Shown here: in pieces, positions 6,411 through 24,475 of the stretch
Position numbering within the stretch: the stretch's first letter is position 1
Layout: the number at the start of each line of letters is the position of its first letter
Assembly: GCF_030811855.1 (NCBI RefSeq)
Contig: NZ_JAUSRN010000001.1
Coordinates: forward strand, 620,001-684,000
Source: Variovorax paradoxus
Lineage (GTDB): Bacteria > Pseudomonadota > Gammaproteobacteria > Burkholderiales > Burkholderiaceae_C
Length of the DNA: 64,000 nt
Direction: 5' to 3'
Made by a program: the position numbers and the translations under genes
The notes under the pieces: model-generated
The model's database searches: none
What the model saw: only the letters and a program-made list of their open reading frames with translations
What the model was told of the DNA's origin: nothing

Positions 6411-6833
6411 TCAGCCGGGCAGGTCGGCTGCGGCCGGCGCGCTGCCGCGCCAGGCCACAAGATCGATCTCGATGCGGGCGCCCTTCGCCAGGCCGGTCAC
6501 GCCAATGCAGGTTCGAGCGGGCCGCCTTCCTTCCGAGAAATGACCGGCGTAGACCGCGTTCATCGCCGCGTAGTCTTCGTCGAAGTGCGTGAGGTACACG
6601 CGCACCGACAGCGCATGCTCCAGGCCCAGGCCGCAACCGGCCAGCACCGTCTGGAGGTTCTTCAACACCTGGCGCGTCTGCGCCGCGATGCCTTCGGGAT
6701 ACGGCGTGTCCAGCGAGGTGCCGACGAACGGCATCTGCCCGGTGACGAAAACCCAACCGTCGGCTTCGACCGCGTGGCTGAACGGTGCAACCGGTTCTGG
6801 TGCACCGGTGATCATGTGAAAGATGGGAGACAT
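6411..6833 (-). CDS. RidA/YjgF/YER057c/UK114 family protein
   Basis: This 140-aa protein has the family features: PVAPFSHAVEADGWVFVTGQ near the N-terminus and the C-terminal ARTCIGVTGLAKGARIEIDL block, whose Arg is the residue that binds carboxylates of imine substrates in RidA. Related proteins hydrolyse reactive enamine/imine intermediates or act in pathway-specific deamination. The ATG at 6833 gives the usual family length; 25 upstream residues in frame are rejected. It is divergent from the AraC-acetamidase fusion with a 164-bp shared intergenic region, so the two may be co-regulated and the RidA protein may serve amide or amine catabolism there. Confidence 0.88.
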   Translation of the reverse strand: MSPIFHMITGAPEPVAPFSHAVEADGWVFVTGQMPFVGTSLDTPYPEGIAAQTRQVLKNLQTVLAGCGLGLEHALSVRVYLTHFDEDYAAMNAVYAGHFSEGRRPARTCIGVTGLAKGARIEIDLVAWRGSAPAAADLPG

Positions 6834-6997
6834 CGCGGCAGGTTGAGGCGGCCGCGGCAGCCGGCATCGGGCGCGGCTGCCGCCCCCGCACCGGAGTTTG
6901 ACAAGCATCTACGGCAAGCCAGTTGCGTGCCAACTCTGGGGCGTGGCAAGTGGCACGTGTCTTGCGCGCCCTGCGCAAGCAACCAGAAAGCGCCACC

Positions 6998-9400
6998 GTG
7001 CAGTTCGACCAGTTCTCGACCGACTCCTATCCGGTGCACCAGCGGCCTCACGCCTGGCGCAATGCCCTGCAGCTGCACCGTCTCAGGCCCGAGATGGCGC
7101 CCGCGGCCGCACCCCTTTATGGCACGCTGACCGCGGGACGCACCGCGCGCGGGGTCGGCATGGCGCGCATCACCTCGTCGCCGCAGACGCTCCAGCGGCT
7201 GGGCGACCCGGCCGATGCCGTGTGGCTCGCGCTGCACCTGAGCGGTGATGCTGCGCTTCACGATGGACAGCGGACCATTGAACTGGCGCCCGGCGACATC
7301 GTCTTCGGACCGGCCCAGGCGCGCGCGGGCCTGGATTTCCGCTCCAACTTCCGGCAGTTCATGGTGTCCATGCCGCGCGCCAGCCTGAAGGCGCGGCTGC
7401 CCGGCGGGCAAGGATTCGCACTCGGCCACCTGTCGGGCCGTGCGGGCCTCGGCCGCATGTTCGCGGGCACGCTGACCGCCCTGGCCGACGCCTTCGACAC
7501 CCTGAGCGACGACGACGTCGCACCGGTCGAGTCCGCCCTGTCGGAGTTCATTGCAACAAGCCTGGCCGCTCACCAGGACCCGGCCTCGCCCGCCATCAGC
7601 AGCACGCGGGCTGCCACCGTGCATCGGCTGTGCCAATATGTCGATGCCAACCTGAGCGATGCATCGCTCTCCCTGGCCGCCGTGGCGGCGCATGAGCGCT
7701 TGTCGGAGCGGCTGGTGCAGAAGCTCTTCGAGAGCCTCGGCCAGACCTTCACCGCCTACGTGCGCCAGTGCCGCCTCGAACGCTGCCGCGCCGACCTCGC
7801 CAACCGCCAGTACGGGCACCTGTCCATCTCGGACATCTGCTTTCGCTGGGGCTTCAACGACCCGGCGCATTTCAGCCATTGCTTTCGCGACCGCTACAGC
7901 ATGTCGCCGCGGCAATACCGACAGCAGGCCAATGAGGCCAGCCAGCAGTCGCTGCGCAAGCGCATTCGGCGCGGCTGGCCGTCGGGCTACTTCGAGACGC
8001 CGGCCAAGGACCCGGTGGCTTCCACCGCCCGCATCGACGCTCGGACCGTGGCCTATGACGGCGCCGCGGCCGCCGTACAAGCGGCACCGGCCGCGCAGCA
8101 CGGCAGCAGCGCCCTCGCCGGCCACCATCACCACCTGCCGGCCACCGCGCAGACCATCCACTGGGGCTACTTCGGCCGCTCGATCCCGCCGGTGCTGACC
8201 ATTGCCTCGGGTGACATCGTGACGATCGAGACGCTGACGCAGCACGCCTACGACGACCACGAGCGCATGATCAAGGGCGACTCCGGCGCCGAGAGCGTCT
8301 TCCAGTGGACGCGCGAGCACAAGGCCGTGGACCGCCGCGGCGCGGGTCCCACCGATGCGTCGATCTATGGCCGCGGCAGCGGCGAAGGCTTTGGGGTGCA
8401 CATCTGCACCGGGCCCATCTACGTGAAGGAAGCGCAGCCCGGCGACGTGCTGGAGGTGCGCATCCTCGACCTCGCACCGCGCCTGGCGGCCGATGCCAAA
8501 TACGAAGGCCGCGCCTTCGGCAGCAACGCCGCCGCGTGGTGGGGCTTTCACTACGACGACCTGATCGAGGAGCCCAGGCAGCGCGAGGTGGTGACGATCT
8601 ACGAAGTTGACTGCAGCCAGGGCGATGCCTGCGCCCATGCCGTCTACAACTTTCGCTGGACGCCGCAGCTCGATCCGAATGGCGTGCTGCATCCGACCAT
8701 CGACTATCCCGGCATTCCGGTCGACCGCGCTTCGATCGTCGAAAACCATGGCGTGCTCCAGGGCGTGACCATCCCGGTTCGACCGCACTTCGGCGTGATC
8801 GCGGTGGCGCCCGCCGAGACGGGCCTCGTCGATTCAGTGCCGCCCTCATGCTTTGGCGGCAACCTGGACAACTGGCGCATTGCCAAGGGCGCCACCCTCT
8901 ACCTGCGTGTCGGAGTCGATGGCGGGCTGTTGTCGGTGGGCGATCCGCACGCCTCGCAGGGCGACAGCGAACTGTGCGGCACGGCCATCGAATGCTCGCT
9001 GACGGGCGTTTTCCAGATCGTCCTGCACAAGGCGGATCAACTGCAGGGCGAACCTTATGCCGACATCGACTACCCCTTGGTCGAAACCGCCGACGAGTGG
9101 GTGATCCACGGCTTCAGCCACGCGGACTATTTAAAAGAATTCGGCGACAAGGCACGCAGCGCAATCTACGAAAAGTCTTCGCTCGACCCGGCCATGCGCG
9201 ACGCCTTCCGCAAGACGCGGCGCTTCCTGATGACCGCGATGGGACTGACCGAGGACGAGGCGATTTCCCTGATGTCAGTCGCCATCGACTTTGGCGTGAC
9301 GCAAGTCGTCGACGGCAACTGGGGCGTGCACGCGGTCATCCGCAAGTCGCTGTTTGCCGGCCGGCAACGTTCGCCGGGTGTTGACTACCAGAAGGAATGA
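6998..9400 (+). CDS. AraC-family regulator fused to acetamidase/formamidase
   Basis: One uninterrupted frame encodes 800 aa. Residues 1-190 form a cupin-like ligand domain (HLSGDAALHDGQRTIELAPG at about 80-99). Residues 207-306 are a double HTH of the AraC type, with LSLAAVAAHERLSERLVQKL in the first motif and ISDICFRWGFNDPAHFSHCF in the second. Residues 311-378 are a basic then Ala-rich linker ending in four histidines. Residues 379-800 are a complete FmdA/AmdA amidase, with QTIHWGYFGRSIPP and the family motif GDPHASQGDSELCGTAIE. The linker ends with HHHHLPATAQTIHWGYF, aligning with the native N-terminus (KHHILPVSPQTIHWGYF) of the stand-alone paralogue at 11738-12979. The start is taken as GTG 6998 rather than TTG 6923. 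It is likely both an amide-hydrolysing enzyme and a DNA-binding regulator. Sequence error is unlikely, as codon pattern is continuous across the junction. Confidence 0.85.
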   Translation: MQFDQFSTDSYPVHQRPHAWRNALQLHRLRPEMAPAAAPLYGTLTAGRTARGVGMARITSSPQTLQRLGDPADAVWLALHLSGDAALHDGQRTIELAPGDIVFGPAQARAGLDFRSNFRQFMVSMPRASLKARLPGGQGFALGHLSGRAGLGRMFAGTLTALADAFDTLSDDDVAPVESALSEFIATSLAAHQDPASPAISSTRAATVHRLCQYVDANLSDASLSLAAVAAHERLSERLVQKLFESLGQTFTAYVRQCRLERCRADLANRQYGHLSISDICFRWGFNDPAHFSHCFRDRYSMSPRQYRQQANEASQQSLRKRIRRGWPSGYFETPAKDPVASTARIDARTVAYDGAAAAVQAAPAAQHGSSALAGHHHHLPATAQTIHWGYFGRSIPPVLTIASGDIVTIETLTQHAYDDHERMIKGDSGAESVFQWTREHKAVDRRGAGPTDASIYGRGSGEGFGVHICTGPIYVKEAQPGDVLEVRILDLAPRLAADAKYEGRAFGSNAAAWWGFHYDDLIEEPRQREVVTIYEVDCSQGDACAHAVYNFRWTPQLDPNGVLHPTIDYPGIPVDRASIVENHGVLQGVTIPVRPHFGVIAVAPAETGLVDSVPPSCFGGNLDNWRIAKGATLYLRVGVDGGLLSVGDPHASQGDSELCGTAIECSLTGVFQIVLHKADQLQGEPYADIDYPLVETADEWVIHGFSHADYLKEFGDKARSAIYEKSSLDPAMRDAFRKTRRFLMTAMGLTEDEAISLMSVAIDFGVTQVVDGNWGVHAVIRKSLFAGRQRSPGVDYQKE

Positions 9401-9508
9401 GCCTGCGTCACCTTGGAGTCGGCCATCTACGCCCTGATCAATCACTGCGCTTGGAACCGTCGTTTCACTCAAGTTGAAATTCTTCGGGGTTTGTCTCCTT
9501 AGGTTTGA

Positions 9509-9525
9509 AATTTAGCGGCTAAATT
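9509..9525. promoter_or_regulatory. 17-bp perfect palindrome, candidate operator
   Basis: AATTTAG-CGG-CTAAATT has perfect 7-bp arms around a 3-bp centre, in an AT-rich pocket 116 bp upstream of the TTG start of the binding-protein gene and 109 bp after the fusion gene stop. It is followed by no T-run, so it suits a protein-binding site better than a terminator. The binding regulator is not known. Confidence 0.45.
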
Positions 9526-9640
9526 GCGACCCTCGACGCCGTCGCACAAGCCCGCTCTGCCAGTGAGATGGCGGAAGCCGAGAACCGCACTCGGCCCAGA
9601 GGCGGTCATTCAGCGTTTCGACTCATTCACAAGGAACCCC

Positions 9641-11737: not shown

Positions 11738-12979
11738 TCAGCGGTTCGTAAAAACGTTCTTGCGGATCGAACCATGGATGCCCCAGTTGGCATCCACCAC
11801 CTGCGTCACGCCGAAGTCGGCCGCCACCGACAGCAGCGCGATCGCCTCGTCTTCGCTGAGGCGGTGCACCGTCATCAGGAATCGGCGCAGCTTGCGGAAA
11901 GCGTCGCGCATGGCCGGGTCAAGCGACGACTTGCCCGCAATCACTGTCTGCGCGTCCGGCCCGAGGGCGGCCAGGTAGTTGGGGTAGGTGAAGCCGTAGA
12001 CCGACCATAGCTCCTCGGTCTCCAGCAGCGGGTGGTCCAAGCCCTCGAGCAAGGTGCCGCCCAGTTCGGACTGCTTGTGCAGGATGAATTCGAAGTCGCC
12101 CGTCAGCGAGGTCTCGATGGCGGTGCCGCCAAGCTCGCTGTCGCCCTGCGCGGCATGCGGGTCGCCGACCGAGAAAAACGCGCCGGGCACGGCGACGGGG
12201 TAGTACACGCGTGCGCCCTTGCCGACACGCCAGTCGTCGATGTTGCCGCCGGTGTAGCTCGGTGGAATGGAGCTCACGAAGTCGGATTCGGACGGCGCCA
12301 GGCCCATAGTGCCGAAGTGCAGCCGGGCCGGCACCTTGACGTTGCGCAGAATGTCTTCGCGCTTGTGCACCAGCGTATGGTCGACGCGCACGCCGGGATA
12401 GTCGATCATGGTGTGTACCACGCCGTCGGGGTCGGTCTGCGGCGTCCACACGTAGTTGTAGACGGCACGTGCGAAGGGCTCGCCCGAGGTGTCGAGTTCG
12501 AAGATCGTCACCACTTCGCGCGGCTTGGGCTCCTCGATCAGGTCGCGAAAATGGAAGCCCCAGGACGCGGCTACGTTCGAGCCGAAGCAGCGGCCCGCAT
12601 AGCAATGGTTGCAGCTGGGCCGGGGGCGCACGTCGAGGATGCGCACCTCCAGCACGTCGCCTGGCTCCGCGCCTTCGATGACGACCGGACCCGTCAGCAG
12701 GTGCACGCCGACGCCCTCGCCCTCGCCGAGCTTGAAAGGCCCCTCCATGGGACCGGCGCCGCGGCGCGGCACGGCCTTGTGCTCGCGCGTCCACGCGAAC
12801 ACCGACTCGGCGCCGGGGTCGCCGGCGATCATGCGCTCGTGGTCGTCGTTGGCATGGTGGGTCAGGGTTTCAATGGTCACGCGGTCGCCGGACTTCACGA
12901 CGAGCGACGGTGCGACCGCCTTGCTGAAATAGCCCCAGTGGATGGTTTGTGGAGAGACGGGCAGGATGTGATGTTTCAT
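11738..12979 (-). CDS. Acetamidase/formamidase (FmdA/AmdA family)
   Basis: A 413-aa cytoplasmic amidase predicted to hydrolyse short-chain amides such as formamide or acetamide to ammonia and the acid. Family motifs include QTIHWGYFSKAVAP near the N-terminus, THHANDDHERMIAGDPGAES, and GDPHAAQGDSELGGTAIE in the second half. It is a paralogue of the C-terminal half of the fusion protein at 6998-9400, nearly collinear along the whole length. Its start ATG has GAAGGA 6 nt upstream. It lies 22 bp downstream of the permease-ATPase gene on the same strand, so it probably ends an operon binding protein, permease-ATPase, amidase, pairing uptake with hydrolysis. Confidence 0.9.
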   Translation of the reverse strand: MKHHILPVSPQTIHWGYFSKAVAPSLVVKSGDRVTIETLTHHANDDHERMIAGDPGAESVFAWTREHKAVPRRGAGPMEGPFKLGEGEGVGVHLLTGPVVIEGAEPGDVLEVRILDVRPRPSCNHCYAGRCFGSNVAASWGFHFRDLIEEPKPREVVTIFELDTSGEPFARAVYNYVWTPQTDPDGVVHTMIDYPGVRVDHTLVHKREDILRNVKVPARLHFGTMGLAPSESDFVSSIPPSYTGGNIDDWRVGKGARVYYPVAVPGAFFSVGDPHAAQGDSELGGTAIETSLTGDFEFILHKQSELGGTLLEGLDHPLLETEELWSVYGFTYPNYLAALGPDAQTVIAGKSSLDPAMRDAFRKLRRFLMTVHRLSEDEAIALLSVAADFGVTQVVDANWGIHGSIRKNVFTNR

Positions 12980-13001: not shown

Positions 13002-14648
<1,647 letters not shown>

Positions 14649-14728: not shown

Positions 14729-15661
14729 TCACTTCGCCACGAGCAGGCGCGGCGCCTCGAGGTTCTCGACCGGCAGTCCGTTCTTCTTGAGCAGTTCGGT
14801 ATGGATGCCGGCCTTTTGCAAGACCACCATCGCGGCCATCACCGCATCGCGGAAGTCGGTCTTGCCCTTGGGCACGGCAATGCCGACCGAATAGGGAATC
14901 GTGACCGCGGTGGCTTTCTCCAGCTTGTCAGGGTAGGCCTTGACGGCACTGTCGACCGTATTGACGTCGTTGATGTAGGTGTGGGCGCGGCCGGCAAGGA
15001 TGGCCTGGATGCAGTTCTGGTTGTTGTCATAGAGCTGGATCTCGGGCTCGGCCTTTCCCATGGCCTTGCACTGCGGCGCGAGCGCCTGGATCAGCGGTAC
15101 TTCGACATAGCCGGTGTTCTCGGCCGCGACGGTGCCGCACAGCGACGTGTTGAGGCCGGTGATCTTCTTCGGGTTGCCCTTGGCCACCAGGACGCCGTCG
15201 AACACCTTGGAGTAGGTGATGAAGTCGGCCGCCTTGGCGCGCTCTTCCGTGGCGTAGATGTCGGAGATGACGATGTCGGCCTGGCCGGCCTGCAGCGTGG
15301 TCAAGAGCGCCGCAAACGTCACGGGCTTGTAGGTCAGCGTGAAGCCCAGGCAGCCACCAATCGTCTCGCCCAGGTCGATGTCGAAGCCGATGTACTTGTT
15401 CGGATCTTTGGGATCGATCGTTTCGTAGCCCGGCGTGTGCGGGTTGATTGCGTTGACCAGGGACTTGCCCTTGAACTGCGGGTATTTGGCTTGCAACGCG
15501 GCGCACTCGACGGGCGCCTTGACCGCTTCGGCGTGGGCCGGCGCGGCGGCCAAAGCGAGGGCCGACAGGCCGATCGCCGCAATGGCCGCGCCGCGCATGC
15601 GGGCCCATACGAAGGCGCGAAGCCGGACGCAGCGTCCGGCCGGGAAAGGAAGGTTTTGCAT
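14729..15661 (-). CDS. Amino-acid-type ABC transporter periplasmic binding protein
   Basis: This 310-aa protein has an Arg-containing n-region and a signal peptide (AAIAAIGLSALALAAAPAHA, cleavage near residue 44), then a type II binding fold of the SBP_bac_3 family. Hallmarks are YIGFDIDLGETIGGCLGFTL, LLTTLQAGQADIVISDIYAT and YSVGIAVPKGKTDFRDAV. It has the ligand-loop pattern of polar amino-acid receptors, but the ligand is not deducible. The ATG at 15661 is preceded by AGGAG at good spacing; the frame upstream to 15754 lacks one. It is the first gene of the probable operon ending in the acetamidase. Confidence 0.87.
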   Translation of the reverse strand: MQNLPFPAGRCVRLRAFVWARMRGAAIAAIGLSALALAAAPAHAEAVKAPVECAALQAKYPQFKGKSLVNAINPHTPGYETIDPKDPNKYIGFDIDLGETIGGCLGFTLTYKPVTFAALLTTLQAGQADIVISDIYATEERAKAADFITYSKVFDGVLVAKGNPKKITGLNTSLCGTVAAENTGYVEVPLIQALAPQCKAMGKAEPEIQLYDNNQNCIQAILAGRAHTYINDVNTVDSAVKAYPDKLEKATAVTIPYSVGIAVPKGKTDFRDAVMAAMVVLQKAGIHTELLKKNGLPVENLEAPRLLVAK

Positions 15662-15780
15662 CGAGGCTCCTGTGGAAACAGCGCGAGCCGACTGGCACCA
15701 CGCCAGCCTGCTGCACCGCACCATGTGAGCGTAGGAGCTGCGCCGCCGCCCCACTTGTGCGTGGGCGCACGACTGCTTGT

Positions 15781-15802
15781 GCGGCCACCAGGAGATGGCC
15801 GC
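15781..15802. terminator. Short hairpin downstream of the SRPBCC gene
   Basis: GCGGCCA and TGGCCGC form a perfect 7-bp stem with an 8-nt loop, 39 nt past the SRPBCC stop and 120 nt before the binding-protein start. There is no T-run on the minus strand, so termination by the intrinsic mechanism is doubtful. It may mark an operon boundary. Confidence 0.3.
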
Positions 15803-16326: not shown

Positions 16327-16821
16327 TCAACGCGGGTGGGGAAACAGCCGCTCGATCGGGCAATGCGTCTTGATGAACGGTGACTTGATGACGATGTAGC
16401 TGAAGTACTTCGCGATGCCGATGTTGCTTTCGAGCAGTCCCTCGATCACTTCCTGGTAGTGGTTCACGCCCCGTGTCAAAAAGCGCAGCAGGTAGTCGTA
16501 CCCGCCGCTCACCAGGTGGCATTCGAGCACTTCGTCCACGTCCCGGATCGCGGTCTCGAAACGCACGAAGTCTTCGCGGTGGTGGTCCTGCAGCGTGACC
16601 TCGGTGAACACGGTGAGCGTGTCGCCGAGCTTCTCGAGCCGCAGGTGCGCGCCATAGCCGGCAATGTAGCCGGCCTGTTCGAGCCGCTTGACGCGGATGA
16701 GGCAGGGGCTGGGCGAGAGGCCGACCGCGTCCGCGAGGTCGACGTTCGTCATGCGCCCGTTCTGCTGCAGCTGGGCGAGGATGCGCAGGTCGAGTCGGTC
16801 GATCTTGAAGGCTTCGGACAT
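16327..16821 (-). CDS. Lrp/AsnC family transcriptional regulator
   Basis: The 164-aa protein has an N-terminal winged HTH (LDLRILAQLQQNGRMTNVDL, then LSPSPCLIRVKRLEQAGYI) and a C-terminal RAM ligand domain with the ECHLVSGGYDYLLRFLTRGV strand-turn. Lrp/AsnC proteins sense amino acids and commonly control adjacent amino-acid catabolic genes. Here the neighbours are an omega-type aminotransferase (71 bp upstream on the same strand), a GhrA-like reductase and, across the divergent region at 20276-20776, a long ABC and dehydrogenase operon. It is therefore the best candidate local regulator of that locus (inference). Confidence 0.9.
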   Translation of the reverse strand: MSEAFKIDRLDLRILAQLQQNGRMTNVDLADAVGLSPSPCLIRVKRLEQAGYIAGYGAHLRLEKLGDTLTVFTEVTLQDHHREDFVRFETAIRDVDEVLECHLVSGGYDYLLRFLTRGVNHYQEVIEGLLESNIGIAKYFSYIVIKSPFIKTHCPIERLFPHPR

Positions 16822-16891
16822 GGCGGTCTTGAATAACGGAGAAGGTCCGATTCTGCTTTGCCGGCGGAACTCCGGAACAGGGCTTTCCCGC

Positions 16892-18295
16892 TCAGGCTGC
16901 CAGCGCCGCCCGCACGTCGGCGGCGTCCAGCACTTCGTCGAGCGTTTTCTTCAGTCGCACGAACATCTGCGCGAACTCGTCTTCCGTGAAGGTGAGCGCC
17001 GGCGCAAAGCCCAGGATGTTGTCGCCGAAGGCGCGGAACACCAGCCCGTTGCGGTAGCCTGCGGCAAAGATGCGTTCCGAAAGCCCAAGCGCCGGATCGA
17101 AGCCACGCTTGCTCTGCTTGTCGCTCACCAGTTCCAGTGCGCCCAGCAGTCCGCGGTGGCGCGAATCGCCCACCAGCGGATGCGCGCGCAGCGCATCGAG
17201 CCCGGCGCCGAAATGGGCCGCGACGCGCTGGCCGTTGGCGAGCACGCCGCCCTCTTCGTACAGGCGCAGCACCTCGAGTGCCACCGCGGCGCTCACCGGG
17301 TGGGCCGAGTAGGTGGCGCCGTGGCCCACGGGAGCGCCCGCGGGTGCGCCGTCGGCAATGCCGGCGTAGACCTTTTCCGAGATCATCGTCGCGCCCATGG
17401 GCACGTAGCCCGAGGTCAGGCCCTTGGCCATGGTCATCAGGTCGGGCTCAACGCCTTCGGCTTCGCAGGCGAACATGGGGCCGGTGCGGCCGAAGCCGGT
17501 GATGACCTCGTCGACGACAAAGAGGATGTCGAGCTCGCGCGCGGCATCGCGCATGGCCTTGAGCCAGCCCTTGGGCGGCACGATGACGCCTCCCGAGCCC
17601 TGGATCGGCTCGCAGAAGAAGGCGGCCACGTTGTCGGCGCCAAGCTCGGCCACCTTGGCGCGCAGCGAGGCCACCGATGCGGCAATCAGCGCCTGCGGAT
17701 CGGCGCCGTCCGCGTGGCGGTACGGGTTGGGCGACGGAATGTAATGCTGCGTGGGCAGCGGCAGGTCGAAACCGCGATGGAACACGGGCAGCGCCGTGAG
17801 ACCAGCGCCGGTCGACGATGAGCCGTGGTAGCCGCGCTCCAGCGCAATGAACTGCTTCTTCGACGGCTTGCCGATCGCGTTGTAGTACTGCACGATGAAG
17901 CGCACAGCGGCATCGATCGCCTCTGAGCCGCCGAGTGTCATGTACACACGGGTCAGCGACGCGGGCGTGATCTGCACCAGCTTTTCCGCCAGGCGGATGG
18001 CCGGCTCGCTGCTGAAATGAAAGTAACCGGTGGCGTACGGCAGGAGGCGCATCTGCTCGGCCGCGGCTTGCACCACGCTCTCCTGGCCGTAGCCCACGTT
18101 CACGCACCAGAGGCCCGCGAAGGCGTCGAGCAGCTCATGGCCGCTTGCGTCGGTCAGCCATGAACCGCGTGCCGAGGCCAGCACGGTGGGGCCGCGCTGC
18201 TCGTGGGTGCGCCAGGGCGAGACGGGATGAATCAGGTGGGCGCGGTCGATCGCGTCGAGCGCGGCGTGGTGCGGCAATGCGGTGGGATGCGTCAT
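16892..18295 (-). CDS. Class III (omega) aminotransferase, PLP-dependent
   Basis: A 467-aa fold-type I PLP enzyme of the putrescine/beta-alanine/omega-amino acid:pyruvate aminotransferase group. Visible elements are YMTLGGSEAIDAAVRFIVQY, the PLP-phosphate and Asp motif FVVDEVITGFGRTGPMF, and the Schiff-base Lys in MTMAKGLTSGYVPMGATMI. Amino donor specificity cannot be read from sequence; amines or omega-amino acids with pyruvate are typical. The ATG at 18295 is chosen because the 43 residues before it are not family-like. Flanking Lrp and GhrA-type genes suggest one amine-to-aldehyde or keto-acid route together with the divergent operon. Confidence 0.88.
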   Translation of the reverse strand: MTHPTALPHHAALDAIDRAHLIHPVSPWRTHEQRGPTVLASARGSWLTDASGHELLDAFAGLWCVNVGYGQESVVQAAAEQMRLLPYATGYFHFSSEPAIRLAEKLVQITPASLTRVYMTLGGSEAIDAAVRFIVQYYNAIGKPSKKQFIALERGYHGSSSTGAGLTALPVFHRGFDLPLPTQHYIPSPNPYRHADGADPQALIAASVASLRAKVAELGADNVAAFFCEPIQGSGGVIVPPKGWLKAMRDAARELDILFVVDEVITGFGRTGPMFACEAEGVEPDLMTMAKGLTSGYVPMGATMISEKVYAGIADGAPAGAPVGHGATYSAHPVSAAVALEVLRLYEEGGVLANGQRVAAHFGAGLDALRAHPLVGDSRHRGLLGALELVSDKQSKRGFDPALGLSERIFAAGYRNGLVFRAFGDNILGFAPALTFTEDEFAQMFVRLKKTLDEVLDAADVRAALAA

Positions 18296-18447
18296 GGCGG
18301 TGTGGGGGTTTGAAGCGAGAGCGGAGGAAGCCTTCGATGCCTCCAGCTTAGGCGGCGCGCCGCATGGCGTGGTGCTGCTTTGGGGGTGCCGCGCAAAGCA
18401 CGCTGCGGAAATGCGCCGCGCCACAGCAGATCATGCGGTGAGCCTTT

Positions 18448-19383
18448 TCAGTAGCCCTTGGCGCGGTCCACGCGGCCGATCATCGGCTCGCCGGCTTCGA
18501 AGCGGCGCAAGTTCTCGAGCAAGGCTTCGGCGGCGCTCAGTGGCTGCGTCATGCTCGCGATGTGCGGCGTGATCTCGATGCGCGGATGGCGCCAGAAAGC
18601 ATGCGTGGGCGGCAGCGGTTCGGGATCGGTCACGTCGAGCACGGCATCGCCAATCTGCCCGCTGGCCAATGCATCGAGAAAGTCGCGCTCGACAAGATGC
18701 GGCCCGCGGCCCACGTGCACCAGCCCTGCACCCTTGGGCAGCATGGCGAACAGCTTCGCATCGAGAAAGCCGCGCGTCGAGTCGGTGAGCGGCAGCAGGC
18801 ACACGAGGATGTCGGTGCGCGCAAGAAAGGCTTGCAACTCGTCAACGCCTGCATGGCATTGCACGCCCTCGACCTCGTGCCGCGAACGGCTCCAGCCCGC
18901 ACAGTCGAAGCCCAATGAGACCAGTTGTGCCAGCACGGCCTGACCGAGAGAGCCGAGCCCCAGCACGCCCACGCGCCGCTCCCCGGCGGGCCGCACGGGG
19001 AGCGGCTTCCACAGCCCTTCCTGCTGCTGGCGCCGGTACTGCGGCATGTCGCGATGCAGGCCGAGCACCGCATGGGTCACGTACTCGACCATGCCGCGCA
19101 CGATGCCCGGCTCGACCATGCGGACCACGGGCAATGCATGGGGGAGCGCCGCGAAGTCGAACTGGTCGACCCCCGCGCCGGAGGAGAACAGCACCTCGAG
19201 ATTCGGAAACCGCTCGGCCAAGTCCGCGGGCGGCTCCCAGGCCGCGAGAAAGCGCACCTGTGCCGCATCGCCGACGTCGGGCCAGATGCGAAAGTCGATG
19301 TCAGGCCGCTGACGGCTGAACACCTCGGCCCATTGGCGGCCGCGAACGGGATCGGACTTGTAGAGAAAGGTGGTGGTCTTCAT
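18448..19383 (-). CDS. ghrA: Glyoxylate/hydroxypyruvate reductase A-like 2-hydroxyacid dehydrogenase
   Basis: The 311-aa protein is a D-2-hydroxyacid dehydrogenase with the GhrA layout. The Rossmann motif GVLGLGSLGQAVLAQL is near residue 140, the substrate Arg is in VHVGRGPHLVERDFL, and the catalytic Glu and His are in DPEPLPPTH and ITPHIASMTQP. It is predicted to reduce glyoxylate or hydroxypyruvate with NADPH in the cytoplasm. Two consecutive ATGs (19386, 19383) occur; the second has the better 5-nt spacing to GGAG. It follows the GNAT gene after 13 bp, so both are in one transcription unit and may clear a 2-oxo acid from the neighbouring pathway. Confidence 0.85.
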   Translation of the reverse strand: MKTTTFLYKSDPVRGRQWAEVFSRQRPDIDFRIWPDVGDAAQVRFLAAWEPPADLAERFPNLEVLFSSGAGVDQFDFAALPHALPVVRMVEPGIVRGMVEYVTHAVLGLHRDMPQYRRQQQEGLWKPLPVRPAGERRVGVLGLGSLGQAVLAQLVSLGFDCAGWSRSRHEVEGVQCHAGVDELQAFLARTDILVCLLPLTDSTRGFLDAKLFAMLPKGAGLVHVGRGPHLVERDFLDALASGQIGDAVLDVTDPEPLPPTHAFWRHPRIEITPHIASMTQPLSAAEALLENLRRFEAGEPMIGRVDRAKGY

Positions 19384-19396
19384 CATCGCTCCGCCT

Positions 19397-20275
19397 TCAG
19401 CCCACGGCCTGCGTCACGATGGCGAACAGCGACGGCCCTTCTGCCGGCGCCGCCAGCGGCTCACCGCGCACCATCGTCGTTGGCGCATCCACGCGCAAGA
19501 GGCCAATGCTCTCGAGCCATTCGGCCAGACCGCTGTCGAAGTCGATGTCGATGCGCGTGAAGTTGCCTGCATTCAGGCCCGCAAGATGCGCGATCAGCGC
19601 CTTCGCGCCCTCGGCGTCGGGCGCGACAACGGGCCCAATGACATGGCCGCGGCCGAAACGCCGCAGCATCGCGAAGCCCTTGGGCGCGTTGTCGTGGTCG
19701 AGCACCACGCAGGCATCGGCGCTTTGCAGCAGCTCGGCGATGAGCGCGTCGCGCGGCATGCCCCGCGCCGCCGCATCGAGCGCCTGCAGCGCCGGCAACT
19801 CGTTGAGGCCGGCGGGCCGCAAGCGCCAACCGGGCTGCAGCGCAATCAGCGGTGCCGGCAGCGCAATGCCCTGGTGCTGCCGCATCTCGCCGGTACGCAC
19901 GAAGCCCAGCCGCTCATAGAGGCCCCGCCCTTCCGCGGTCGCATGCAGCAGCACTGTGCGCTTGTCCAGCCCGTCGAGCAACGCGTTCATGAGGCGGTGC
20001 CCAATGCGGCGGCCCTGGCAAGCGGGCGAGACGATCACCAGGCCGATGGTGGCGTGGCTCTTGCCCCAGAGCCAGCGCAGGCCGGTCGCGATGAGCTCGC
20101 CGTCGCGTTCGGCCGCAATGCCTTCCGCGTGCGAGAACACCTGCTCCCAGTCTGCTTGGCGATGCGGCCATCGCAGCTCGGCGGACAGCGCATGCGCATG
20201 CGCAAGGTCGGCGGCCGTCATCGGTCTGAGCACCACGCCATCCGGGGCGGGCGCGTTCGAAATAGGTTCAGGCAT
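19397..20275 (-). CDS. GNAT family N-acetyltransferase with two GNAT-like halves
   Basis: A 292-aa protein with a complete GNAT domain at about residues 15-140. The acetyl-CoA pyrophosphate loop is VIVSPACQGRRIGHRLMNAL and the C-terminal strand LYERLGFVRTGEM. A second, more diverged acetyltransferase-like half runs from about 145 to 280 (CVVLDHDNAPKGFAMLRRFG and GAKALIAHLAGLNAGNFTRI). Twin-GNAT proteins are common in soil proteobacteria and their substrates are mostly unknown. The ATG at 20275 is preceded by a non-coding divergent promoter region. It heads the short GNAT-ghrA unit. Confidence 0.8.
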   Translation of the reverse strand: MPEPISNAPAPDGVVLRPMTAADLAHAHALSAELRWPHRQADWEQVFSHAEGIAAERDGELIATGLRWLWGKSHATIGLVIVSPACQGRRIGHRLMNALLDGLDKRTVLLHATAEGRGLYERLGFVRTGEMRQHQGIALPAPLIALQPGWRLRPAGLNELPALQALDAAARGMPRDALIAELLQSADACVVLDHDNAPKGFAMLRRFGRGHVIGPVVAPDAEGAKALIAHLAGLNAGNFTRIDIDFDSGLAEWLESIGLLRVDAPTTMVRGEPLAAPAEGPSLFAIVTQAVG

Positions 20276-20776
20276 GGGAAAACTCTTTATTGCGAGGGAA
20301 TGGCGCATCCATCTTGGACGACATTGCGGCGCCGCACCATAGCGAATTCGGTCTGTTTCGCAACTTGCAAGCTTCGGTTGCCGGGCGGTCCGGTTTCGCA
20401 ATTCGCTGCGGCGGCGCGCCCGCATACGCACACAAATGCTGAGCCATCCTGCCTAGGATCGACGGCCACTTTCAATGACCTTCCGCCATGCATGTCTTCG
20501 AACCGTTCAACACCTTTCGGCAGGAGCCGGGGGTGGCGTGCGTTCGAAGCCAATCCGCGCTTCAAAAGCGTGCTCCTCGAGCCTGCCGCGACGCAGCGAG
20601 GTGCATGGCCGCACGCGCGCAGGGCACACCGCACGGCATGCCGTCGCCGGCCCTGCAAACCGCAGCTTCGGTTCGACAAGAACCGTTTTTCCCTACATAC
20701 CTCGAGCGGGGGCGTGCTGCAATCGCTTCGTAATGAGTTTGTCGCATTTACCACCCTTTGAACAGGAACTGAGACC
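20276..20776. other. 501-bp divergent intergenic region without a supported gene
   Basis: Open frames in both orientations lack any recognisable domain, have atypical Cys/Arg/Ser-rich composition and are rejected. The segment separates the minus-strand GNAT-ghrA unit from the plus-strand catabolic operon. It holds a hairpin-like GCAAC...GTTGC pair around 20360-20380 and a weak AGGA ribosome site before 20777. Divergent promoters controlled by the Lrp protein are likely here, but I see no conclusive site. Confidence 0.45.
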
Positions 20777-21442
20777 ATGACCTTCCGTCCCAAATACGTC
20801 ACCTTCGACTGCTACGGCACCCTCACCCGGTTCCGCATGAAGGAGATGGCCGCCGACCTTTTCGCCGACCGCGTTCCGGCCGAGCGCATGGCCGAGTTCC
20901 ATGCCGACTTCACCGCCTATCGCTTCGACGAGGTTCTGGGCGACTGGAAGCCCTACGAGGTGGTGCTGAAGAACGCAGTGCGGCGCCTCTGCAAAAAATG
21001 GAAGATCCAGTACTTCGACCTGGACGCGCAGAAGATCTACGACGCAGTGCCCACCTGGAGCCCGCACGACGACGTGGCGGCAGGCCTGGCCAAGGTGGCC
21101 AAGGAAATCCCGCTGGTGATTTTGTCGAACGCCTCGGACGACCAGATCCAGAAGAACGTGGCCATGCTCGGCGCACCGTTCCACCGCGTCTACACCGCGC
21201 AGCAGGCACAAGCCTACAAGCCGCGCCTGCAGGCCTTCGAGTACATGCTCGACTCGCTGGGCTGCAACCCGGAAGACGTGCTGCACGTGTCGTCGAGCCT
21301 GCGCTACGACCTGATGTCGGCGGACGACATCGGCATTGTCAACAAGGTGTTCGTCAACCGCGGCCACGGCCCGGGCAACCCGGCCTACCGCTACACCGAA
21401 ATCAAGGACATTGGCGGCCTGCCTGGTGTCGTCGGCCTCTGA
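20777..21442 (+). CDS. HAD-superfamily hydrolase, haloacid dehalogenase type II-like
   Basis: The 221-aa protein shows the nucleophile motif VTFDCYGTLTRF at residues 8-19, the second motif VILSNASDDQIQKNVAML near 114, Lys in AYKPRLQAFEYML and the acidic motif region HVSSSLRYDLMSADDIGI. Typical type II dehalogenases have D-x-x-G-T-L and the same cap insertion, but the final motif here is SSS-x-x-x-D rather than the canonical form, so substrate may be phosphorylated or a phosphonate. It is the first gene of an operon of an oxidase, ABC importer and two dehydrogenases. A role in removing phosphate or halide from an imported compound is inference. Confidence 0.83.
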   Translation: MTFRPKYVTFDCYGTLTRFRMKEMAADLFADRVPAERMAEFHADFTAYRFDEVLGDWKPYEVVLKNAVRRLCKKWKIQYFDLDAQKIYDAVPTWSPHDDVAAGLAKVAKEIPLVILSNASDDQIQKNVAMLGAPFHRVYTAQQAQAYKPRLQAFEYMLDSLGCNPEDVLHVSSSLRYDLMSADDIGIVNKVFVNRGHGPGNPAYRYTEIKDIGGLPGVVGL

Positions 21443-21473
21443 TCTCTTTCTACGCGTCCAACCGCCCTACGCC

Positions 21474-22766
21474 ATGAAGCTCGACTCCTACTGGACCGAT
21501 TCCGCGCCGGCCTTCACGCCTGCTGTGCATGCACTGCCGGCGCAGGTCGACGTCGCGATCGTTGGCGGCGGCTTCACGGGCCTGTCGGCGGCGCTGGCGC
21601 TGGCCAAGCGCGGCGCCAACGTCGCGGTGCTGGAAGCCGGCACGCGCGTGGCGGCCGAGGCGTCGGGACGCAACGGGGGCCACGTGAACAACGGGCTTGC
21701 GGTGGACTATGCCGACGTGGCGGCCAAGGTGGGCATCGAGAAAGCCCGCGCCTGGTACCGCGCCTACGACGATGCGGTGGACACCGTGGCGCGACTGGTG
21801 CGCGACGAAGCCATCGACTGCGACTTCATGCGTCACGGCAAGCTCAAGCTCGCTACGCGCGCCAACCAGATGGGCGCCCTCGAACGCAGCGCGCAGCGCC
21901 TATTGGCCGACGGCGTGGACACCGACGTCGAGATCCTCGACGCGGCACGTGTGCGCAGCGAGGTGCAGAGCGAGCGCTTTCACGGCGGCCTGCTCTACAA
22001 GCGCAGCGGCCAAATGCACATGGGCCGCTTCGCCCAGGGCCTGGCCGAAGCCGCGCAGCGCAACGGCGCGCAGATCCACACGGGCACCATGGTCAACCGC
22101 ATCGAGCGCGTGGGCCAAAGCCATGCGCATCGGCTGCACACCGCGGGCGGCACCGTCACCGCGCAGCAGGTGCTGTTGGCCACCGGTGCCACGCGGCACG
22201 GCGGCTACGGCAGCTTCGGCTGGCTGCGCCGGCGCATCGTGCCCATCGGCAGCTTCATCGTCGTGACCGAGCCGCTCGGCGCGGAGCGCGCGCAGGCGCT
22301 GCTCGCGGCGCGGCGCACCTACACGACGGTGGCGAACATCCATCACTACTTCCGGCTCACGCCCGACCACCGGCTGGTGTTCGGCGGACGCGCGCGCTTT
22401 TCCGTGTCCAGCCCCCAGGCGGATGCGGCAAGCGGCGAGATCCTGCGCGCGGGACTGGCGGAGACCTTTCCGCAGCTTGGCGCCGTGCGGCTGGACTATT
22501 GCTGGGGCGGACTGGTCGACATGACGCAAGACCGCCTGCCCCACGCCGGCGAGCGCAACGGCCTCTACTACGCCATGGGCTACAGCGGCCACGGCACGCA
22601 GATGTCGGTTCACATGGGCGAGCGCATGGCCGCCGTGATGAACGGCGACACCCGCGCCAACCCCTGGCAGGGCCGCGACTGGCCCTCCATTCCCGGCCAC
22701 TTCGGCCCGCCCTGGTTCCTGCCGGCGGTCGGGCTTTATTACTCGCTCAAGGACAAGTTGGCCTGA
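21474..22766 (+). CDS. FAD-dependent oxidoreductase of the DAO family (PuuB/amine-oxidase-like)
   Basis: The 430-aa protein begins with the FAD dinucleotide fold DVAIVGGGFTGLSAALALAK, then a GRNGGHVNNG loop typical of the gamma-glutamylputrescine oxidase and glycine-oxidase-like subfamily. The C-terminal FAD motif YAMGYSGHGTQMSVHMGERM completes it. It would oxidise a primary or secondary amine to an aldehyde with release of ammonia or amine and transfer electrons to O2 or a carrier. The ATG at 21474 lies 31 bp after the HAD stop; the upstream frame overlaps the HAD gene and is rejected. It fits ahead of an aldehyde dehydrogenase of the succinate-semialdehyde type in the same operon. Confidence 0.87.
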   Translation: MKLDSYWTDSAPAFTPAVHALPAQVDVAIVGGGFTGLSAALALAKRGANVAVLEAGTRVAAEASGRNGGHVNNGLAVDYADVAAKVGIEKARAWYRAYDDAVDTVARLVRDEAIDCDFMRHGKLKLATRANQMGALERSAQRLLADGVDTDVEILDAARVRSEVQSERFHGGLLYKRSGQMHMGRFAQGLAEAAQRNGAQIHTGTMVNRIERVGQSHAHRLHTAGGTVTAQQVLLATGATRHGGYGSFGWLRRRIVPIGSFIVVTEPLGAERAQALLAARRTYTTVANIHHYFRLTPDHRLVFGGRARFSVSSPQADAASGEILRAGLAETFPQLGAVRLDYCWGGLVDMTQDRLPHAGERNGLYYAMGYSGHGTQMSVHMGERMAAVMNGDTRANPWQGRDWPSIPGHFGPPWFLPAVGLYYSLKDKLA

Positions 22767-22852
22767 GCGCCGCGCGAGCCCACCGCTTTTTTTCGTTCCG
22801 TGTTTGTTTGTTCTTCAACCCTCAGTCACCGGCCCCACAGGAGTACCCCACC

Positions 22853-24475
22853 ATGAGCGACACCAGCAACAAGAGGTTCGAAAACCTCGTCGGTCCCAGC
22901 GAAAGCCTTCGCGTAATGGAATCGCTGAAACGCGGCGCCTCGCGGCGCGACATCCTCGCCATGCTGATGGCCGGCGGCATGCAAGCCACCATGGCTGGCG
23001 GACTTGCGGGCATGGCGGTGTCCGCCCATGCGCAGACCCCAAGGAAGGGCGGGCGCCTGCGGGTGGCAGGCGCCACCGCGGCCGCCACAGACACGCTCGA
23101 TCCGGCCAAGCAGTCGAACCAGACCGACTACTCGCGCTGCAACATGGTCTACAACAGCCTGACGTCGCTGGATGCCAGCCTCACGCCGCAGCCCGCATTG
23201 GCCGAGTCGTTCACCACGAAGGATGCCAAGACCTGGGTCTTCACGCTGCGCAGGGGCGTGACCTTCCACGACGGCAAGGCGCTCACGCCGGCCGACGTGG
23301 TGTTCTCGGTCATGCGCCACAAGGACCCGGCCACCGGCTCCAAGGCCAAGGTGCTCGCCGAACAGATCGAGAGCGCCAAGGCCACCGGCGCCAATGAAGT
23401 GACCTTCGTGCTCACCTCGCCGAACGCCGACCTGCCGGTGATCCTGGGCACCTTCCACTTCCATATCGTCAAGGAAGGCACCACCGACTTCAACGCCGGC
23501 ATCGGCACCGGCCCCTACAAGGTCAAGGAATTCAAGCCCGGTGTGCGTTCGCTCATGGTGCGCAACGATGCCTACTGGAAGCCCGGCAAGCCCTACCTCG
23601 ACGAGATCGAGTTCGTGGGCATCGGCGACGAGAGCGCACGCGTCAACGCGCTGCTGTCCGGCGGCGTGGACCTGGTCGGCTCGGTCAACCCGCGTTCGGT
23701 GGAGCGCGTGAAGGGAACGCCCGGCTTCGGCATCCTGGTCACCCAGTCGGGCCAATATTCCGACCTCATCATGCGCAAGGACGTGGGGCCCGGCGCCAAC
23801 CCCGACTTCGTGCTCGGCATGAAGCACCTGTTCGACCGCGAGCAGATGAAGAAGACCATTGCGCTGGATTACGCGGTGGTCGGCAACGACCAGCCGATCG
23901 ACCCGACCAACCGCTTCCACTTCGCCGGCCTGCCGCAGCGCCCCTTCGATCTGGACAAGGCGAAGTTCCACCTGCAGAAGTCCGGTATCACGGGCAAGGT
24001 TCCGATGGTGGCATCGCCTGCCGCGCTGTATTCGGTGGAGATGGCCCTGCTGCTGCAGCAGACGGCGCAGCGCGCGGGACTCGAGATCGACATCAAGCGC
24101 ATGCCGGCCGACGGCTACTGGTCGAACCACTGGCTCAACAGCCACGTCGGCTTTGGCAACGTGAACCCGCGCCCGAGCGCCGACGTGCTGCTGACGCAGT
24201 TCTTCCAGTCAGGCGCCGCGTGGAACGAGTCGCGCTGGAAGAGCGACAAGTTCGACCAGCTGCTGCTGGCCTCGCGCGCCGAGACCGACCTGGCCAAGCG
24301 CAAGCAGATGTATGCCGACATGCAGACCATGATCCACCAGGACGCCGGCATCGGCATCCCGCTGTTCCTCTCGAGCCTGGACGGCCACTCTTCCAAGCTC
24401 AAGGGCCTGTCGCCCATTCCGCTGGGCGGCCTCATGGGCTACAACTTCGCCGAGAACGTATGGCTGGAGGCATAA
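22853..24475 (+). CDS. Tat-exported peptide/opine-type ABC transporter substrate-binding protein (SBP_bac_5)
   Basis: The 540-aa precursor has a twin-arginine-like leader, GASRRDILAMLMAGG followed by a long hydrophobic region and Ala-x-Ala cleavage near residue 57. The mature type II binding protein has the DppA/OppA features: TLDPAKQSNQTDYSRCNMVY, LRRGVTFHDGKALTPADVVF and AFDLDKAKFHLQKSGI-like lobes. A GGAGTACCC ribosome site precedes the ATG at 22853; the extended upstream frame overlaps the oxidase gene and is rejected. It supplies substrate to the DppB/DppC/fused ATPase proteins that follow. Substrate could be a peptide, opine or polyamine-like compound. Confidence 0.9.
   Translation: MSDTSNKRFENLVGPSESLRVMESLKRGASRRDILAMLMAGGMQATMAGGLAGMAVSAHAQTPRKGGRLRVAGATAAATDTLDPAKQSNQTDYSRCNMVYNSLTSLDASLTPQPALAESFTTKDAKTWVFTLRRGVTFHDGKALTPADVVFSVMRHKDPATGSKAKVLAEQIESAKATGANEVTFVLTSPNADLPVILGTFHFHIVKEGTTDFNAGIGTGPYKVKEFKPGVRSLMVRNDAYWKPGKPYLDEIEFVGIGDESARVNALLSGGVDLVGSVNPRSVERVKGTPGFGILVTQSGQYSDLIMRKDVGPGANPDFVLGMKHLFDREQMKKTIALDYAVVGNDQPIDPTNRFHFAGLPQRPFDLDKAKFHLQKSGITGKVPMVASPAALYSVEMALLLQQTAQRAGLEIDIKRMPADGYWSNHWLNSHVGFGNVNPRPSADVLLTQFFQSGAAWNESRWKSDKFDQLLLASRAETDLAKRKQMYADMQTMIHQDAGIGIPLFLSSLDGHSSKLKGLSPIPLGGLMGYNFAENVWLEA

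Follow-up and report, generated by a model that had tools for sequence, protein, structure and literature searches.

The window, a stretch of 64,000 nucleotides of Variovorax paradoxus DNA, contains a gene in which an AraC-type regulator and an acetamidase/formamidase are encoded by a single 800-codon frame without internal stop (Table 1). A preliminary description of this DNA had recognized a full regulator and a full amidase in one frame, and both the uninterrupted frame and the Pfam calls bear this out. In addition to the sensor domain and the double helix-turn-helix, the regulator half has an HTH_AraC match at residues 275–309 (43.3 bits, cut-off 26.6), whereas FmdA_AmdA matches the protein in two stretches, the better of which covers residues 613–772 (89 bits, cut-off 27). 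By its score above the PF12833 cut-off the protein is a member of the AraC/XylS family, and by passing the Pfam cut-off and keeping 68 family positions it is also a member of FmdA_AmdA.

The amidase half could be aligned over its full length with a solved structure from Methylobacillus flagellatus (3b9t; E = 1.2e-182). At the junction, 3b9t and the stand-alone paralogue encoded nearby align from the same point, which supports the earlier observation that the native N-terminal pattern of the amidase is kept there. In a predicted structure of the entire protein (53 rows, mean pLDDT 71, pTM 0.56), an AraC-like half, with CuxR (5nla) as its best fold match, is combined with an amidase fold, and pLDDT falls below 50 at residues 321–339 and 341–374. 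No conserved internal start that would yield a separate amidase was found in the linker among 80 fused genes checked for a start codon with a ribosome-binding-site-like stretch: 19 of the 80, including that of the window (GTG), have such a combination in the linker, compared to 46 of 72 stand-alone amidases at their own starts.

Table 1 Features of the fusion locus, in window coordinates
Feature	Position	Strand	Remarks
RidA-type gene (Ribonuc_L-PSP)	6411..6833	-	divergent from fusion; ATG at 6833, longer frame to 6908; start choice inferred
Second sigma54-like site TGGCACGCAACTGGC	6918..6932	-	9/10 positions; faces RidA gene, back to back with the fusion's site
Sigma54-type promoter TGGCACGTGTCTTGC	6951..6965	+	matches 10/10 positions
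Fused AraC regulator-amidase gene	6998..9400	+	800 aa, GTG start
AraC_binding_2 sensor domain	7070..7522	+	residues 25–175; Pfam 47.4 bits (cut-off 27)
HTH_18 double helix-turn-helix (PF12833)	7685..7927	+	residues 230–310; 71.5 bits (cut-off 33.6)
Variable linker	7973..8122	+	residues 326–375; pLDDT mostly <50; dN/dS 0.17–0.53
Amidase half (FmdA_AmdA, PF03069)	8123..9367	+	residues 376–790
Stand-alone FmdA_AmdA amidase	11738..12979	-	paralogue, 60% identity to fused domain
One-chain ABC permease-ATPase of the polar amino acid type	13002..14648	-	
SBP_bac_3-type binding protein	14729..15661	-	ATG at 15661; longer frame to 15754
Binding-protein leader hairpin CTGGC GTGGT GCCAG	15692..15706	-	
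Candidate operator ACAAG-N6-TGCGC-N6-ACAAG	15753..15781	-	ACAAG repeat at 22 bp, ~92 bp before binding-protein ATG
Genes next to the operon	16327..24475		

Downstream of the fusion, on the opposite strand, the binding protein, the one-chain permease-ATPase and the stand-alone amidase form an operon. The permease-ATPase is itself a fusion, and it recurs beside the regulator-amidase in many loci. The genes next to this operon encode an Lrp-like regulator, a class III aminotransferase (above the PRK05965 subfamily cut-off), a 2-hydroxyacid dehydrogenase, a HAD type II protein and proteins resembling FAD-dependent amine or amino acid oxidases; these genes may be part of the same catabolism.

Recurrence and surroundings of the fusion

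A homologue search across 5.8 billion proteins, with 7993 candidates scored, gave 1927 hits, of which 120 were listed. All 120 listed homologues carry both PF12833 and PF03069, and a PF14525 call is absent in seven of them. Some of the listed proteins are already named ‘acetamidase/formamidase/AraC-like DNA-binding protein’ or ‘AraC family transcriptional regulator with amidase-like domain’; the architecture is thus visible in database names, and what is new here is the candidate operator described below. Scanning one genome per species (84,980 species) confirmed at least 561 matches. The best 80 of these, a set that was not dereplicated, span alpha-, beta- and gammaproteobacteria, and 79 of the 80, from named genomes, passed a one-frame fusion test. 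The 80th, from Thiomonas sp. FB-6 (L113, 146–1930), has a 595-codon frame that holds part of the helix-turn-helix and the whole amidase; it lacks the sensor part, the helix-turn-helix piece is still joined to the amidase in one frame, and it is a shortened fusion. At the near end of the range, the fusions of two genomes of the same genus (G030 and G034) are 97% identical to that of the window.

In a tree of 51 representative amidase domains, 27 fused domains form one clade (support 100/99) together with a single stand-alone record, P0175, which may be a cut fusion because its record name says ‘partial’. The stand-alone amidases that neighbor the fusions sit in lineages apart from this clade: SA60, about 60% identical to the fused domain and holding the paralogue of the window, and SA40, about 40% identical. 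The proposal of a true gene fusion is strongly supported by the 120 listed homologues, the 79 loci and the single clade of fused domains; likewise, the combination of AraC sensor, HTH_18 and FmdA_AmdA recurs in this order in many genomes and is not a lone case. A stop or frameshift at the junction is ruled out by the open frame in the window and the 79 of 80 loci that are fused. The protein is probably an activator of the AraC/XylS family whose C-terminal part is an acetamidase/formamidase domain, and a single fusion probably gave rise to it.

Neighboring genes were counted at 60 fusion loci, the window among them, whose flanks both exceed 5 kb. A stand-alone amidase lies within the fetched stretch in 56 of these (27 SA60, 29 SA40) and is absent in four; it belongs to one or the other of these two lineages, so the fused amidase is kept although the pathway has another. 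Binding-protein genes are present in 26 of the 60 loci, RidA genes in 12, and the permease/ATPase cluster, a broader set that includes other ABC ATPases as well, in 31. The neighbors vary by clade, from an ABC importer with RidA, through PuuE-like with MetX-like genes, to the alphaproteobacterial loci, which instead have Rieske, LigB/DODA, TauD, RutA-like, RutB-like and TonB-receptor neighbors. In a Caballeronia/Paraburkholderia group (L061, L063, L064, L065, L067, L068 and L083), a PuuE-like polysaccharide-deacetylase gene follows the fusion (for example, L065:6949–7851), and a MetX-like hydrolase often follows the ABC genes. Comparison of neighbors across fusion loci gave no substrate clue from further cluster-mates.

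Conservation and selection in the amidase half

Conservation was assessed in four groups of amidase domains, comprising 102 fused, 22 SA60, 26 SA40 and 73 database stand-alone sequences, with P0175 and L065_sa2 left out. At 68 positions identity reaches at least 95% across all four groups. These include the GGN-x-D and GDPH-x-x-QGD-x-E stretches as well as H416, H468 and H597, and no histidine of the shared set falls below 95% identity; a catalytic role for any of the conserved positions is putative. Within its family, the fused domain is 61% identical over its whole length to 3b9t, the nearest solved structure, which it also matches in fold, and the conserved residues are kept; it differs from PF03069 acetamidases/formamidases in being joined to a regulator. 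Another 12 positions reach this level in each of the three stand-alone groups but drift in the fused group (404, 487, 513, 538, 626, 629, 640, 668, 678, 768, 772 and 776), D538, K678 and D772 being among them; of these, only 629 differs from the stand-alone consensus in the fusion of the window.

Comparison of five Variovorax genomes gave dN/dS values of 0.03–0.07 for the amidase half and 0.04–0.15 for the AraC parts, compared to the much higher range of the linker (Table 1), and the stand-alone paralogue gave 0.02–0.10 in four of the five. Purifying selection on both halves is strong, and the amidase half is as constrained as the stand-alone paralogue. By contrast, 371 of 561 pairs drawn from 34 loci show higher conservation in the stand-alone amidase than in the fused domain, and mean identity over 379 pairs is 0.49 for the AraC part versus 0.78 for the amidase domain.

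FmdA-AmdA is one of two formamidase families, according to a paper on these enzymes (PMC10781810). With the formamidase equivalog model NF045496 the fusion scores 52.9 bits, so far under the cut-off of 500 that its substrate cannot be read from this model. A distant relative, 2wkn, is called a formamidase in one listing and a gamma lactamase in another.

Promoter of the fusion gene and candidate operator

The sigma54 -24/-12 consensus is TGGCAC-N5-TTGC, and a perfect match, TGGCACGTGTCTTGC, lies before the fusion gene, where it would give a leader of ~22 bases. It is one of 26 perfect sites genome-wide, compared to eight for a control pattern. The gene is predicted to be sigma54-dependent from the presence of both a -24/-12 site and a sigma54 gene in the genome, which has two such genes (two PF04552 matches) as well as 12 strong activator-domain matches. 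A site with no more than one mismatch in 10 positions lies in the 200 bp upstream of the fusion in 41 of 79 loci, versus 16 of 944 other genes, whose starts were set by simple gene calling, and 14 of 1580 stretches of 200 bases taken at random from the same loci. A good site is absent in 38 of the 79 loci and in five of six further fusion loci, so that sigma54 control would be limited to some clades. The second sigma54-like site, TGGCACGCAACTGGC, faces the RidA gene, and a sigma54-like site is found near RidA in four of 15 loci.

AraC/XylS factors bind half-sites that are repeated directly at a spacing of about two helix turns. The preliminary description had proposed the regions flanking the fusion gene, 6834–6997 and 9401–9640, as the DNA targets of the protein. 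The first does hold the sigma54-type promoter, but it has no direct repeats, only inverted ones, one of which spans both sigma54-like sites; the second holds nothing beyond one inverted repeat, and the likely operator lies instead before the binding-protein gene. There, a 22-bp direct repeat goes with the fusion and is a candidate for such binding. The ACAAG-N17-ACAAG block is conserved in aligned binding-protein leaders (11 loci) and present in 12 of 36 binding-protein upstream regions examined; within the window it is unique, and no shuffle matched it. The genome of the window has one perfect copy, at the binding-protein promoter, while its other 17 hits have three mismatches and a control pattern also gives 17.

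The motif was then transferred to 66 loci outside the Comamonadaceae-type set on which it was trained, with the reversed motif as control; the 17-position consensus was written after the matches in L075 and L107 were known, and three later hits were not blind. At 15 or more of 17 positions, 40 hits were obtained versus none for the reversed motif, and at 14 of 17, 76 versus six. Of the 76, 61 lie near a gene start (one of six for the control), and these are spread over 40 of the 66 loci; the other 26 loci lack a 14/17 site near a gene start. Across all loci, 70 such sites lie near the starts of genes for the binding protein (21), the FmdA_AmdA family, fused or not (17), TauD (8), Rieske (6), TonB receptor (4), LigB (4) and others (10).

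Among 61 relatives, a site with at most one mismatch is found in five, all of them among the six that have the fusion (control pattern, three genomes); the sixth, G028, has the fusion and no operator site within one mismatch. In a family scan of 299 genomes, which used a revised operator pattern and counted G092 as a non-fusion genome, the site is present in seven of seven fusion genomes, never more than ~6.4 kb from the fusion, versus 15 of 292 others (Fisher p = 4e-9; control pattern, eight genomes). With G000 set aside, the stretches from the remaining six fusion genomes have sites matching 16 or 17 of 17 positions, located in five of them between the divergent fusion and a stand-alone amidase; G236 is not independent, because its site is identical to that of the Pseudacidovorax loci used for the motif. 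The fusion is thus predicted, from sequence, to bind ACAAG-N6-TGCGC-N6-ACAAG before the transporter-plus-amidase operon as its only strong site in the genome.

The leader of the binding-protein gene holds a short hairpin whose stem changes on both sides in relatives, to CAGGC/GCCTG in L041 and to CGGAC/GTCCG in L047, L049 and L051, with a constant TGG in its loop; by a strict five-pair test it is present in nine of 11 aligned loci and absent in L042 and L046. No Rfam family scored above cut-off before the binding-protein gene, and a match to M23 (18.1 bits, gathering score 41.2) was taken as chance.

Proposed sensing by turnover and its alternatives

The fusion is likely an amide-responsive activator. 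As the best overall explanation, to which we give an even chance, the protein would be an AraC-type trigger enzyme with a built-in catalytic part and would drive the transporter-plus-amidase operon. In such a scheme, nitrogen limitation would lead to production of the fusion, in this clade via the sigma54 promoter; an amide taken up by the cell would meet the amidase half, and its binding or turnover would alter the state of the AraC half, which would then activate uptake and bulk hydrolysis. Hydrolysis would finally clear the amide signal and reset the switch. The conserved residues of the amidase half, together with selection as strong as on the stand-alone paralogue, are compatible with this reading, and the single frame, the single clade, the 68 kept positions, the low dN/dS, the second amidase and the operator and sigma54 statistics would all count in its favor. 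Against it count the unfused AraC relatives described below (G001/G006), the 12 drifting positions, the 371 of 561 pairs, G028, and the loci without an operator site (26/66), without a sigma54 site (38/79 and 5/6) or without a stand-alone amidase (4/60), as well as the presence of an N-terminal sensor domain, which could bind an inducer itself. More broadly, and with somewhat less confidence than an even chance would warrant, we envisage AraC activators of a widespread class with a single origin, whose small-molecule sensor has been replaced or supplemented by a complete amidase. Such proteins would sample the amide by catalysis and control a small dedicated regulon through the 22-bp repeat operator; where sigma54 control is added, as in some clades, the switch would have two layers, shortage of nitrogen and presence of the amide, and would remove its own signal.

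Several known systems are related to such an arrangement. The nearest curated AraC/XylS model is FeaR (NF007243), which shares AraC_binding_2 and the double helix-turn-helix with the fusion, itself provided with a directly repeated candidate operator. The fusion differs in carrying an amidase after the DNA-binding domain, and at 126.6 bits versus the model's cut-off of 199 it is not a FeaR equivalog. Ada is a known case of AraC-type DNA binding joined to catalysis, and in Ada and MocR-type regulators alike a DNA-binding domain is joined to an enzyme or an enzyme-derived domain; these involve other enzymes and other domain orders, and are not known to hydrolyze amides. Trigger enzymes, of which PepA is one, are enzymes that also act in the regulation of genes (PMC6245113). 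The fusion likewise unites an apparent enzyme and an apparent regulator in one protein, but adds a separate AraC DNA-binding domain. No paper describing an AraC-amidase fusion was recognized among the open-licence literature. With its enzyme and DNA-binding parts in one chain, a single strong predicted target site and unfused natural relatives for comparison, the protein makes a clean system in which to ask if regulators can sense by turnover. With the operator motif, regulons for the catabolism of amides (perhaps lactams) can be marked in proteobacteria, and the fusion protein could be used as a biosensor for amides.

Doubt about the proposed step from the amidase half to the AraC half comes most strongly from two Variovorax genomes, G001 (L135, 3226–8673) and G006 (L134, 1913–8408), in which an AraC relative without amidase lies beside SA40 amidase and TauD genes; the G006 locus also holds LigB and glyoxalase-like genes. 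Neighboring genes at both are 61–77% identical to those of alphaproteobacterial fusion loci, and operator-like sites matching 14 of 17 positions, a level at which chance hits occur, lie 79 bases before the TauD match. That these amidase-AraC pairs are split fusions was ruled out: the G006 amidase falls in the SA40 lineage, and that of G001 had been removed before tree building as a near copy. Placement of the two AraC relatives inside versus outside the fused clade gave an AU p of 0.257; they may have lost an amidase or may never have had one. The amidase half may therefore be dispensable for regulation, as these unfused relatives sit next to related pathway genes and to weak sites that resemble the operator.

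The same loci therefore speak for a bifunctional but uncoupled protein, whose AraC half senses an inducer in its N-terminal domain and whose amidase is a working pathway enzyme attached for co-production. AraC_binding_2 is intact, and tight coupling is not evident, because the linker is variable and of low confidence in the model. Such a protein would leave to be explained why a second amidase is kept for metabolism alone where 56 of 60 loci already have a stand-alone one, and conservation of its AraC part lies far below that of the amidase domain; we regard it as a serious alternative, though less likely than not.

An amidase half that acts as a sensor, binding the amide but no longer cutting it, seems unlikely to us. 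The drift at 12 conserved positions in the fused group, D538, K678 and D772 included, would fit a loss of cutting; the invariance of 68 positions, with every histidine of the shared set, argues against it, as does the departure of the window's protein at position 629 alone of the 12. Finally, a sequencing or annotation artefact, in favor of which we found no point, is refuted by many independent genomes (79 of 80 loci and all 120 listed of 1927 homologues) and has next to no chance of being correct.

In one relative, G092 (L143, 3744–4643), a fused-type amidase piece with 79% identity occupies a 313-residue frame with no AraC match within the 8-kb stretch; it is perhaps a remnant.
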